Shown here piece by piece: positions 1,163-58,251 of a DNA stretch of 64,000 bases. This DNA is from Sipunculus nudus. Its lineage: Eukaryota; Annelida; Sipuncula; Golfingiida; Sipunculidae. The position numbers and the translations under genes were made by a program. The DNA lies in NCBI GenBank assembly GCA_026874595.1, contig CM049320.1:15668488-15732487 (forward strand). The letters are read 5' to 3'. Numbering within the stretch: position 1 is the stretch's first letter; each line of letters opens with the position of its first letter. The notes below the pieces were generated by a model. It had not been told where the DNA came from. It did not search any database and saw only the letters and a program-made list of their open reading frames with translations.

Positions 1163-1748
1163 TCAGTTGTTAACTGCGAGAGGGCATTTGCGTCTTCTGG
1201 CGATTTCTCTGATGGTCTTGGTGTTACCAGATCTCAGACGACGGTTAGCGAACCATTTCCTGACTTGTTCTGTGGTGATTTCCCCAGTGGTGGCCAATAA
1301 CTCAGTGGTCTCAGCGGTCGGGTACGGGTGCTCCTCATTCATAGAGTACCAGTTCTCCATGATGCGAGTAGCTACAGGGTCCGGCTTGGCGGGCTTGGAT
1401 TTCCGTGGTCGGATGGCCGGAGTAGCAGCAACCTCCGTCATGCTGGTCACGTGACCTGTTTCTACCTGATGACACAACTGCTGGACTTGACTGATGAGAA
1501 TGCTGTGCTGGTTGTCATAGTAACTGTTGATCTGGTCATGTTGCCATGGTGACACACCTTGAGCTCTGAGTGCCTGGTAACGCTGTCCTTCAAGTTGACT
1601 GGCCTGCATGGCGTAATAAATCTGGATCTCCTGGGACCTCGTTTTCTGCTTTGACTCTAGCCTCAGAAGTTGAAGGTTCAACATGGCGATGCGGAGAGAC
1701 AGAGGTTCAGGGAACGTGTTCGCGACTGGTGCTGCCAGCTGTGACGTG
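1163..1748 (-). pseudogene. T1: 5'-deleted TALE homeobox pseudogene (SPILE-type)
   Basis: The 3' part of exon 2 is intact: the helical block (MLNLQLL onward), the basic linker and a complete TALE homeodomain with HPYP in the loop and WFANRR in helix 3, ending CPLAVNN. Compared with T3, everything upstream is missing: the Thr/Ser-rich half of exon 2, the intron, exon 1 and the TATA region. At 1748 the coding sequence joins the distal promoter (TTTAATTAATCAAAG) found about 1 kb further upstream in T3. A short duplicated TGTAGTTTA at the joint suggests end-joining with templated filler. The first in-frame ATG (1684) would give a 173-residue protein that keeps the homeodomain, but there is no core promoter. 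I infer a dead copy; a rescued truncated transcript cannot be excluded. Confidence 0.85.
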
Positions 1749-2444
1749 TGTAGTTTACAGTGTAGTTTAATTAATCAAAGGCTCTAGTTACCAAACTCAG
1801 CCCAGTTCATCAAAGGATGGTTTGTTGTTTGTCCGACCGGCTACAGAAGATCACACTCGGTTTAGTTGTAGTTTTTGTATGTTTGTAACTCTTCAAAGTA
1901 AGTTTGTACGTGTGGATCAGCCGAATGTAGAACGTTTGGTTTTAGCGTTTTATCTACAGACCTGGCTTTCATCTGACCCTTGCACCGATCGAACCATTTA
2001 AAAAGCTGACCATATCATAATTATTCTTTAATAAACTATGCATAATAAATTCAGTAAAAAAAATGACAGGACTTTATGAAAGTCTTTCTCTATTTTTTCA
2101 CTAATAATTATTTTATTAACATTTTGATTGCATTTTTAGAGTAATAAAATTAAAGGTTTTCTATGACAGTCTTTTTTCTTTATTTTTATGTGGTACAGTA
2201 AATGCCTTAAATTTGATGATGATAAATTATCATATTACGAACACGAAATAATTTGAGATCTTAAATTTACATTGACAAAAAAAATCATATTATGTGATAT
2301 AATAGAAATAAACATAACATCATATAACAAGAAAATATAAACAGGAATCCTATATAACAGCTAGTTATTCTATACTTGGATGGGTGTTTATCTGTATGAT
2401 TTTTTTTACACAAACACAAATAGTTGATAAGTTTCAGGTGGAAA
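1749..2444. other. Remnant of T1 distal promoter and D-block
   Basis: This region has no gene. It keeps two ATCAAAG motifs (1774-1780, 1809-1815) that belong to the distal promoter of the T3, T5 and T7 class. The rest is AT-rich sequence paralogous to 18540-19240 and 32750-33430. Confidence 0.6.
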
Positions 2445-3713
2445 TCATAAAAATGTCCTAAAATTTCGGTAGGGCAAAATCAACTGTGGTAAAAAATCCC
2501 GATACATATAGACAGATTTTTTAAATCATTTACACTCTCCATAAAATCCTCCGGTAATAATTCAAATTAATTTGTGAAAATGTGTATATTACAGTGAATA
2601 TTGCACCGTATTCATGGGATATTTTTGCTGTTCAATCGCACGGTAAACGTAATGAACAGGTAAGTTATTTTAGTCAATGGTGACAAGCAAACTAATTAAT
2701 GGGTATAAACAAGAAATCAGCAACGAGACCAATAATTAAAACGGAAACGAAGAACAATTCATTCATCTTTCTCGTTGAATACGGCCCGTACGAAACTTAC
2801 TGAAACAAATTATTGATGATGATGATAATAATAATAATGATAATAGTAATAATAATAATAATAATAATAATGATAATAATAATAATAATAATAATAGAAA
2901 AGCACTCAGAGAGCGCAGACCTCCGCCATGGCAGCTCAATACCCCATATGGCATTGTCAGAAATGCAGCATTTTCCTTTCAAAATTCCTACATCCCTTTG
3001 TTGGTCCCGATCACATCCAAAATGTAATGAATTGTTCCTAGTATCATTGCCGAGCTTTCCTGAGAAATTCATGTGAATCAAGATAACTTTTTGAATAATA
3101 TTGCAAACAGTCTAAGAAACAGACAAACGAACAAACCAACGCCCGCAAAAATAGAACACCGCAAAGGTTAGAAAGGTTAAAATAATAATAATAATAATAA
3201 AATATATAAAAAACACATCTATATCGGTAACATTGTTGAATCTTATATTTTATAATATAAATACCGCTAATACTATTATTATTATTATTATTATTATTAT
3301 TATTATTATTATTATTATTATTATTGTTATTATATTTATTTCGTAGAAAGAAGATACATTTGTTAAAAAAATTATACACTAAACATGTGTTTTATTTATG
3401 TAACCTGACACCATTTAAATAGTGTATTTTATAACTTTTCATAAGAAATGTGGTACTTCTTCATTTATAATGGCAATAATAATAATAATAATAATAATAA
3501 TAATAATAATAATAATAATAATAATAATAATTAAAAGACTGATTATTTATTATGTAAAGATTCTTGAATCTAATGTCTTTTGTCACACACGCCGCTCTGC
3601 TTGAACCTTTATAAAGAATGGAAGAAATACACAGAATAAACCAAACAGAATTATACAAGCGAAACAAACGCTGTCTCAATACGAAAAATAAAAAAAGTGC
3701 AATTTTATATATT
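2445..3713. repeat. Left copy of 1.27-kb direct repeat flanking the LINE
   Basis: This D-block segment is repeated in the same orientation at 9093-10364, immediately after the LINE. Both copies run from TCAT...AAAATGTCC to CAATTTTATATATT. They differ mainly in microsatellite length and a few substitutions; the left copy also lacks a GCGGAAGG-like stretch near its start. Microsatellites here are a mixed ATG/AAT tract at about 2816-2896, AAT at 3180-3200, ATT at about 3274-3325 and AAT at about 3474-3531. Open frames of poly-Ile, poly-Asn or poly-Tyr here are microsatellite artefacts. Confidence 0.85.
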
Positions 3714-3822
3714 TGAGTGAAAATGCGCATGCGCGGCTGGTGAGGTTGGTCTTTTAACACATGTGTTTCATAAACTGTATCCTGCTACTACAAAAAGGAT
3801 TGGCTCTGATTAATTTCATACA

Positions 3823-56370: not shown

Positions 56371-56376
56371 AGTCAA

Positions 56377-56717
56377 ATCAAAGCCAGTTCTGTTTGTCAA
56401 ACACTGGAACCAAACGTTCCTTCTTTTTCTGAGCCACACGGACAAACTTACTCTGATTACTGTTTGATGAGTTACAAACATACAAACAAAACAAACAAAC
56501 TTAGTTTGAACTTCAGTAGCCGATCAGAACAAACAACAAACCATCCTTTGATGAACGGGGCTGAGTTTGGTAACCAGAGCCTTTGATAAATTTAACTACT
56601 CCGTGATGATCAAAGGGATCAAAGACCTGCGGATCACAGAAAGTTTGAGCCGTCAAAGGAGAGAATTTAGTTTCTGATGTCCACCAGTGATCCAGGTGTG
56701 AGTAGCTGGTATATAAA
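56377..56717 (+). promoter_or_regulatory. T10 promoter: five TCF/LEF-like motifs and TATA box
   Basis: CTTTGAT/ATCAAAG occurs at 56377-56383, 56546-56552, 56581-56587, 56609-56615 and 56618-56624; the last two form the tandem GATCAAAGGGATCAAAG. The TATA box is TATATAAA at 56710-56717. The promoter looks intact although the gene is broken. Confidence 0.6.
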
Positions 56718-56882
56718 GGTGAGTAGTTGGTGAGTAGGTATCATTAACTCGGAATCTGCTCAACGCTTCACATCGACCTCAGATTTTACTCAGAATCTGT
56801 TCCACTTACTACTCACTGAATAAGTGCAGATGGCTTCTTGTACTCGTACACTGTTCAGGTATAACATAAGAGTAATCTGGAA

Positions 56883-58251
56883 ATGGACCTGACTCACTTG
56901 GACGTACCCAGCCTTGAGGAGCTGAATTCACTCCTGTGTTCAGGATCGTTCACTACACACCAAGGCATTAACGTACAAATAGTGAGTATCCACATTAAAT
57001 GTAAATTAGCGCTTAGCCGGATTATTTTAGTTCAATAATTGTTCTGCGCAAGATATGTCACCCGCTTTAATTCTCCAAATTTCCTTCCCAAAAAATCATT
57101 AAAAAATACACATACTGCATAATATTAATTTAAAAATATATAATTTTCATATTTTTTTTATTTTACATGCACTTGTTCTTTTTTTTTTATGAATTCACGA
57201 GTATTACTAAGTGCACTCAGTGCACTAAGTAATACAAAGTACTATACTAAGTACTATATTAAGTGCACATTTATTGTTAATTGCCATCTTATTATTGATA
57301 TGATTGAACAACTTGAATTATTTTTCACATATAGTTGGTTCTCTGTCTTCCTGAAGCAGCCCACGTCAGTCACTGATCAAGTCGATGAACTCACAACGAA
57401 CAAGACAATCACCAGCATGAAGCCCGCTGTACCAGTAAAACAGCCACTGACAGCACTGAACGGTCAGCAACACAGAGACTGGTTCACCACGATATCTGGC
57501 TGTGTCAGCAGTGCCCCCGTCATGACCACGACCGGAGCGAGTCCAGGAACCACTACACACCACAGAAAGGAAGTCCCCACCTCACAGGTGGCAGCACCCA
57601 CCTACCACATACCAAAAGGCACCACGTCACAGGTGGCAGCACCTACCTAACACAAGCAGGAAGTCGCCGTGTCACAGGTTGCCGCACCAGTCAAGAACGC
57701 GCTCCTTGAACCACTGTCCCTCCGCATCGCCATGTTGAACCTCCAACTCCTGACGCTCTAGTCAAAGCAGAAAACGAGGTCCCAGGAGATCCAGAATCAT
57801 TACGCTATGCAGGCCAGTCAACTTGAAGGTCAGCGTTACCAGGCGCTGACTGCTCTGGGGGTGTCACCATGGCAACTGCAAGGTATCAACGGTTACTATG
57901 ACAACCAGCACAACATTCTCATCAGTCAAGTCCAGCAGTGGTGTCATCAGGTAAACAGGTCACGTGACCACCTTGACGGAAATTGCTGCTGCTTCCACCA
58001 TTCGACCAAGGAAAACCAAGCCCGCCAAGCTGAACCCTGTAGCTACTCGTATCATGGAGACCTGGTACTCTATGAATGAGGAGCACCCGTACCCGACCGC
58101 CGAGACCACTGAATACCTTGCCACCACTGGGGGAATCACCACAGAACAAGTCAGGAAATGGTTTGCCAACCGTCGTCTAAGATCTGGTAACACCAAGAAC
58201 ATCAGAGAGATCGCCAGAAGACGGAAGTGCCCACTAGCGGCAACTTGCTGA
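56883..58251 (+). pseudogene. T10: TALE homeobox pseudogene (two stops, one frameshift)
   Basis: Exon 1 (56883-56981) is open (LEELNSLLCSG), with donor GTGAGT; its last codon is ATA where the others have ATG. Exon 2 (57360-58251) keeps the family order: MKPAVPVKQPL, the SGCVSS block, three 15-residue repeats, the helical block and the homeodomain. A TAA at 57648-57650 lies in the third repeat. A TAG replaces the Glu codon of TLESKQK (about 57760). Two bases are missing after CATCAGGTA near 57953, shifting the frame. The final frame carries an intact linker and homeodomain (METWYSMNEEHPYP) and ends CPLAATC like T8. The poly(A) signal is at 58427-58432. Confidence 0.9.

Follow-up and report, generated by a model that had tools for sequence, protein, structure and literature searches.

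An alternating array of TALE homeobox genes, probably of the SPILE A/C type, in the genome of Sipunculus nudus

A 64,000-bp stretch of the genome of the sipunculan Sipunculus nudus (1.43 Gb, 153 contigs) carries ten genes encoding TALE-class homeodomains, which lie on strictly alternating strands. This stretch (contig CM049320.1, here C15; C15:15668488-15732487) is called the window throughout. The locus raises the question of how such an array was built, and whether its copies are maintained genes or the remains of an amplified segment. The account that we consider fairly probable as a whole is that these are TALE genes of the SPILE A/C type, which encode a three-helix PADRE-like domain and are arranged as direct repeats of an inverted pair, with the history and the TCF input proposed in the last section.

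The multiplication and change of lineage-specific regulators such as SPILE are poorly understood. According to published accounts, SPILE genes help to specify blastomeres during spiral cleavage in limpet and mussel (PMC8524836), TALE genes are expressed from egg to blastula in oyster (PMC5322547), and annelid TALE genes are upregulated during early cleavage (PMC12550047). The number of SPILE A/C genes per species reaches at most nine in Table 1 of the first of these sources, whose text mentions eight in an abalone and seven in a chiton. Zygotic expression from 4-16-cell stages is among the traits of the SPILE A/C clade.

The alternating array and its relatives

The ten copies (window positions 1163-58251) follow each other in the strand order -,+,-,+,-,+,-,+,-,+, which confirms what an earlier note on this DNA had described. 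The probability of strict alternation of ten copies is 2/1024, assuming independent orientations. Nine of the ten copy frames submitted matched the Pfam family Homeobox_KN above the cut-off; the exception was the upstream frame of copy 10, which stops before the homeodomain, the homeodomain of this copy being open in another frame. The earlier note had assigned a two-exon structure to all ten copies. This holds for eight of them, in which a 99-bp exon 1 (MDLTHLDVPSLEELSSL...) was located by blastn, and not for copies 1 and 4, in which blastn detected no exon 1. The joined frame of exon 1 and exon 2 is unbroken from ATG to stop in six of these eight copies (2, 3, 5, 6, 8 and 9), and is interrupted by stops and frameshifts in copies 7 and 10. 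With these lesions and a truncation in copy 1, the array is partly decaying, as had also been noted.

The array itself is larger than the ten copies first described. It spans C15:15599350-15726729 (~127 kb) and comprises 18 alternating copies and one fragment, that is, nine head-to-head pairs designated m1/p1 to m9/p9 (minus- and plus-strand copies, respectively), of which m5 to p9 lie in the window. To the left of the window there are eight further alternating copies and a duplicate of p4 that is truncated and lies on the same strand as p4. Strict alternation of 18 copies would have a probability of 2/2^18 if these were independent, which they are not, since they descend from duplicated pairs. 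Exon 2 is open together with exon 1 in 8 of the 18 copies: m3, m4 (each exon of these two being assessed separately), m6, m7, m9, p5, p7 (with a changed tail) and p8. Stops or frameshifts break m1, p1, m2, p2, p3, p4, m8 and p9, while m5 (truncated) and p6 (frameshifted) have lost exon 1. A lone N-terminal fragment of exon 2, containing stops, was found ~110 kb to the right of the array (C15:15836349-15836642). The possibility of an assembly artefact was considered and is unlikely: there is no N in the window or in loci L001-L043, and the units differ by several percent.

The earlier note had taken a divergent pair as the probable unit of multiplication, in which case same-strand copies should cluster and paired copies should mirror each other's sister relations. 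This is the pattern found in a tree of exon 2 (31 rows). Copies m3-m8 form one group (100/98) and p3, p5, p6 and p7 another (100/99); the sister relation of m3 and m7 (100/99) is mirrored by that of p3 and p7 (96/83), and the relation of m5 and m6 (92/81) is mirrored, weakly, by that of p5 and p6 (91/0). Copies m1, m9, p8 and p9 stand apart from the strand groups. The parts of copy 5 (m7) resemble different pairs: its exon 2, intron and 3′ flank are closest to pair 3 (98-99%), its promoter to pair 2 (96.8%), and the spacer of its pair to pair 6 (88%). The same-strand clustering, the matching sister relations and this mosaic together indicate that pairs multiplied as units and that pieces were exchanged between them later. 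A shared bidirectional promoter was rejected as the cause of pairing; the two ATGs of a pair are about 2.3-4.0 kb apart (six pairs) and a separate promoter block of ~600 bp precedes each gene.

Loci combining a PADRE-like region of ~84 amino acids (aa) with one TALE homeodomain number at least 63 in the whole genome, and the counts by location are likewise lower bounds: 19 in the C15 array (fragment included), 14 at C6:5310855-5389851, 19 at C3:59195996-59262261, five on C11, two on C14, two on C1 at 26.4 Mb, and one each on C1 at 97.9 Mb and on C6 at 20.8 Mb. The 14 copies of the C6 array (L045-L047, L059-L068) begin in the order -,-,+,- and the last ten alternate strictly; two of them, L064 and L065, have a common in-frame deletion that begins in the PADRE-like region and extends into the homeodomain. 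The C3 array (L044, L069) shares with that of C15 the PADRE-like region, the homeodomain and the promoter motif described below. It differs in that its 19 copies, spaced at ~3-4 kb, are all on the plus strand, without internal stops among the listed matches, and in that the gene is uninterrupted in the one C3 copy read.

The individual copies are located in the window as follows. Copy 1 (m5; 1166-1774, minus strand) is a decayed, 5′-truncated exon 2 that retains the PADRE-like region and the homeodomain. Copy 2 (p5; 11125-12260, plus strand; exon 1 11125-11223, exon 2 11526-12260) encodes 277 aa and terminates six residues before its relatives do. Proteins of 316 aa are encoded by three minus-strand copies: copy 3 (m6; 16957-18263; exon 1 18263-18165, exon 2 17808-16957), copy 5 (m7; 31161-32461; exon 1 32461-32363, exon 2 32012-31161) and copy 9 (m9; 51822-53165; exon 1 53165-53067, exon 2 52673-51822). 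Copy 4 (p6; 21571-22325, plus strand) is a decayed exon 2 with a frameshift near position 21930. Copy 6 (p7; 35965-37080, plus strand; exon 1 35965-36063, exon 2 36352-37080) encodes 275 aa, its C-terminal tail being altered by a frameshift directly behind the third helix of the homeodomain. Copy 7 (m8; 42969-44273, minus strand; exon 1 44273-44175, exon 2 43821-42969) is decayed: a stop interrupts its PADRE-like region, and exon 2 also has a frameshift. Copy 8 (p8; 47599-49045, plus strand; exon 1 47599-47697, exon 2 48059-49045) encodes 361 aa, and copy 10 (p9; 56883-58251, plus strand; exon 1 56883-56981, exon 2 from 57357) is decayed, with a stop and a frameshift ahead of the homeodomain. 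The region encoding the N-terminal linker contains a 45-bp tandem repeat in copy 8 (48261-48481, 4.9 units, in frame) and in copy 10 (57568-57688, 2.7 units).

The spacers contain other sequences. A degenerate element resembling a long interspersed nuclear element (LINE), with Pfam endonuclease and reverse transcriptase matches in interrupted frames, occupies positions 3814-8832, within the spacer that parts the two copies of the first window pair, and it accounts for the 10-kb width of that spacer. A frame of 263 aa (38523-39314) resembles, by eye, the end of a retrotransposon reverse transcriptase and has no Pfam match. Downstream of copy 4 a segment is duplicated (22993-23307 and 25999-26313, ~3 kb apart); this segment (repeat family D8) also adjoins copies 2 and 6. 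No RNA families or tRNAs were detected in the window at the thresholds applied.

The intron of the C15 array

The intron that separates the two exons was read in the 14 copies with readable borders (m2-m4, m6-m9, p2-p5 and p7-p9). It is 287-393 bp long, with the donor GTGGGT, GTGAGT or GTAAGT, and it ends in AG followed by CAG, so that either AG may be the acceptor. The C6 genes read straight through this junction, codon for codon with the C15 copies, in 9 of the 12 copies fetched; in the remaining three the junction lay outside the stretch or was unmatched. Reading from the ATG, the single C3 copy analysed and four C11 copies are likewise unbroken, the N-terminus of the C11 genes being too diverged for the exact site to be placed.

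The opposite arms of the C15 pairs are similar in some parts and not in others. For pairs 3, 7, 8 and 9, the arms are 83-87% identical over the 600-bp promoter; the figure is 75-85% for exon 1 and 87-89% for exon 2, whereas the introns and distal flanks cannot be aligned. The introns fall into classes that are unalignable across the arms (m2-m8; p2-p7; p8/p9; m9). The first 21 bp of the m9 and p9 introns are 95% alike, and the last 110 bp of the m9 intron show ~71% identity to the m copies. The intron of copy 5 (32013-32362, minus strand, 350 bp) occurs at six places in the genome, every one a minus copy of the C15 array. An origin of the intron from a repeat was rejected; the copy-5 intron, the sole one queried, is confined to these six copies and no target-site duplication was visible by eye.

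Intron gain in the C15 lineage, followed by its spread between the arms, would require the fewest events. The alternative that survives best, although we regard it as unlikely, is that both alternating arrays inherited the intron and that C6 lost it via a reverse-transcribed copy. Introns are known to be lost through conversion with cDNA, and the fact that the C15 intron classes no longer align with each other would suit an old intron. However, the uninterrupted genes of C3 (one copy) and C11 (four copies) mean that a loss in C6 would need either an earlier gain or further losses, and introns here diverge ~1.5-2 times faster than synonymous sites, so alignability is lost quickly.

Promoters, constraint and decay

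The proximal promoters of copy 5 (32462-33061, minus strand) and of copy 6 (35365-35964, plus strand), the other arm of the same pair, exemplify the ~600-bp block common to both arms. They contain the motif CTTTGAT/ATCAAAG, which we take to be the TCF/LEF consensus. All 14 promoters read contain 3-6 exact sites within 730 bp. The promoter windows from -500 to -200 hold 68 sites in 4.2 kb, compared with 44 in the other 169.8 kb, although the promoters are related and these events are therefore non-independent. When one promoter from each of C15, C6 and C3 is compared, ATCAAAG ties for first place in minimum count among the shared 7-mers (6, 3 and 5 occurrences, respectively; CTACTCA has 4, 4 and 3), and the first two site spacings of the one C3 promoter read are 95 and 36 bp vs 94 and 35 bp in C15. 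Of the six p3 sites, five are conserved in 10-12 of the other 13 promoters, and the remaining one in 4; the mean conservation of all 7-mers of the p3 promoter is 5.2, and the mean of the motif was reached by 126 of 100000 random sets.

Protein constraint was estimated as the ratio of nonsynonymous to synonymous divergence (dN/dS; NG86) over a 546-bp core in 17 pairs of open-frame copies. The ratio was 0.20-0.33 in comparisons between arms, in those with m9 and for p5 vs p8; 0.21-0.24 between C15 and C6 copies; 0.13 for the single pair within C6; and 0.13-0.17 in comparisons with C3, where dS is saturating (about 1.5 between C15 and C3).

An improbable competitor, to which we give somewhat less credit than to intron loss, is a mostly neutral, decaying segmental amplification: a gene trapped in a repeat-rich, expanding segment, whose intact frames are recent leftovers and whose alternation and copy number are functionless. 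Several observations speak for it and weigh against the account favoured here. Ten of the 18 C15 copies are broken, dN/dS among the young minus copies is 0.23-0.56, and the decayed copies m2, p2, p3, p4, m8 and p9 keep 3-6 promoter sites each, so the motif is conserved in dead copies too. A LINE insertion lies within a pair. The C11 promoters (found for four of five copies) hold only 3, 2, 2 and 1 sites per 1 kb, against a local background of 0.58/kb, and 16 other TALE loci (3.1-4.0 kb each, mostly coding or flank) contain 0-2 sites each, which weighs on the same side as regards the motif. Against neutral decay stand the dN/dS values, which are 0.20-0.33 across arms and 0.13-0.24 for the pair inside C6 and for C15 vs C6; the 19 C3 and 14 C6 copies, of which one has a stop; and promoters as similar as exons beside unalignable introns.

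Age of the pair, family identity and proposed history

The divergent pair is probably not a novelty of the C15 array: the sequences directly past the stop codon are of two types, and both recur in the alternating array of C6, so the pair would be older. Type A is present in six of the seven C6 minus copies tested and in C15 p8 and p9; type B and its relatives are present in three C6 plus copies, in the C6 minus copy L062 and in the other 14 C15 copies tested. A tree of this flank (26 rows, 120 columns) unites type A (100/100), places m9 with the C6 plus copies and L062 (85/89), and rejects C15 monophyly (approximately unbiased (AU) test, p 1e-95). For the same 26 copies, the exon-2 tree makes C15 monophyletic (100/99.9) and rejects the type A grouping (AU p 0.0008). 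Each group tested on one tree was defined from the other, and both trees exclude m1, p1, the fragment, L064, L065 and 2 of the 14 C6 copies.

Because the exon and flank trees contradict each other, the pair appears to predate the split of the C6 and C15 arrays, and the exons to have been homogenised across the arms afterwards, most simply by gene conversion. A transfer of flanks rather than of exons would equally yield this discordance. It is very improbable, in our judgement, that the pair arose twice, by separate inverted duplications in C15 and C6, which would require no conversion between arms. Exon 2 does give a C6 clade (99/95) beside that of C15; the flanks of p8 and p9, though, join those of the six C6 minus copies, and that of m9 joins the C6 plus copies and L062, over a flank of only ~115 bp. 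Two further points count against homogenisation of an old pair: the B flank of L062 makes the match between strand and flank type imperfect, and a run test for conversion in exon 2 (m1 and p1 left out) reached p<0.05 for 13 of 64 pairs on opposite strands and for 8 of 56 on the same strand, which is only suggestive.

The homeodomains show the hallmarks of the TALE class in alignment, namely the PYP loop (a three-residue loop extension) and WFANRR. Residue 54 is Leu, for which a TGAT-type core rather than TGACA would be the predicted binding site. A phylogeny of the homeodomains (65 rows, 65 columns), a check called for by the earlier note and run here against canonical TALE rows, places the copies outside the PBC, MEIS, PKNOX, TGIF, IRX and MKX-like rows. 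One clade (98/88) comprises the ten window rows, nine of C6, one of C3, six of C11, C14 and C1, two single loci and six unnamed proteins; a 97/95 branch separates the clade of PADRE-like genes from 11 canonical TALE rows (IRX, MKX-like, PBC and two unassigned loci of this genome; PBX1, MEIS2, PKNOX1, TGIF1 and TGIF2LX from the PDB). A near neighbour is the first homeodomain of a two-homeodomain gene (86/61, weak). That the copies are fast-diverged members of a conserved TALE family (PBC, MEIS/PKNOX, TGIF, IRX or MKX) is scarcely credible, given this branch and a PADRE-like region in place of the PBC or MEIS domains, with Pfam matches of homeodomain type only, even though the best solved relative by sequence is the PBX1 homeodomain and a forced union of the canonical, window and C6 rows was rejected only marginally (p-AU 0.048), a further point against our account.

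Each gene encodes one homeodomain, as in the SPILE A/C clade (the B clade has two), preceded by the conserved region of ~84 residues, which is likened to the SPILE PADRE domain (~87-90 residues) by size and position. An AlphaFold2 model of the copy-5 exon-2 protein (12 input sequences) predicts helices at residues 105-122, 124-150 and 156-186, in blocks with a predicted local distance difference test (pLDDT) score of about 78-93; the mean pLDDT is 62.5, the predicted template modelling score 0.35, and confidence is low before residue 100. From the position of the homeodomain outside the canonical families, the genes are likely to be of the SPILE A/C type. Mollusc SPILE A/C genes (PMC8524836; TALE clades VI, VII, XV and XVII in PMC6118893) are likewise of the TALE class, with a single homeodomain, a conserved region of similar size ahead of it, and lineage-specific tandem duplicates (eight near-identical limpet homeodomains, seven genes on one chiton scaffold). 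The present genes differ in number (at least 63 loci vs a maximum of nine per species in that source), in strict alternation and in their private intron.

Other TALE loci were also observed in this genome. A second, distinct family, with open frames of ~400-440 aa and a WFNNRRNRS homeodomain, forms several tandem groups, including those at C6:7241104-7308182, C1:8758549-8804833 and C2:88593786-88607879 (L006-L008, L024-L038, L040). A single open frame at C1:17282835-17283461 (L058) encodes a PADRE-like stretch together with two TALE homeodomains, an arrangement described for SPILE-B/TALE-IV genes. A lone TALE gene at C12:10992724-10993191 (L039) has a longer, diverged region ahead of the homeodomain and might, as a guess, be SPILE-D-like.

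Searches of the literature on SPILE and its PADRE domain, on expansions of TALE genes and on homeobox arrays of head-to-head build listed no title or abstract opening that describes such an array. In the Shx arrays of Lepidoptera (PMC9977156), too, homeobox genes that are young and change fast form very large arrays, partly associated with repeats, with up to 165 loci reported. Those genes are of the ANTP class, derive from zen, lie in the Hox cluster and are described as tandem duplicates, whereas the present ones belong to the TALE class and multiplied as an inverted pair.

We propose that an intronless ancestral gene was duplicated in inverted orientation before the split of the C6 and C15 arrays, and that the pair was then amplified as a unit, probably through unequal crossing-over. 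An intron would have been acquired after codon 33 in the C15 lineage. Gene conversion and purifying selection would have held exons and proximal promoters alike in both arms; meanwhile the introns, the spacers and the distal flanks would have drifted apart, and ten of the 18 C15 copies would have decayed. Each intact copy, with its own promoter and several TCF/LEF-like sites, may be activated in the early embryo by β-catenin/TCF, its predicted product being a TALE factor that marks blastomere identity. More tentatively, the inverted-pair layout may itself maintain a multi-copy early-embryo factor, arm-to-arm conversion being limited to promoter and exons and thereby spreading the new intron, which became fixed in C15 but not in its sister array.

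If the genes are as they appear, a single genome holds arrays of two builds, inverted pairs and plain tandem repeats, with intact and dead copies adjacent. On the more tentative reading, a recent intron gain would have been caught within a homeobox family, for which the intronless sister array and both flank types would serve as internal controls. With the intron present in one array and absent from its sister, and with a common promoter motif that predicts direct control by TCF, one species would suffice to test concerted evolution, the gain of an intron and the input that acts upstream of early cell-fate genes.

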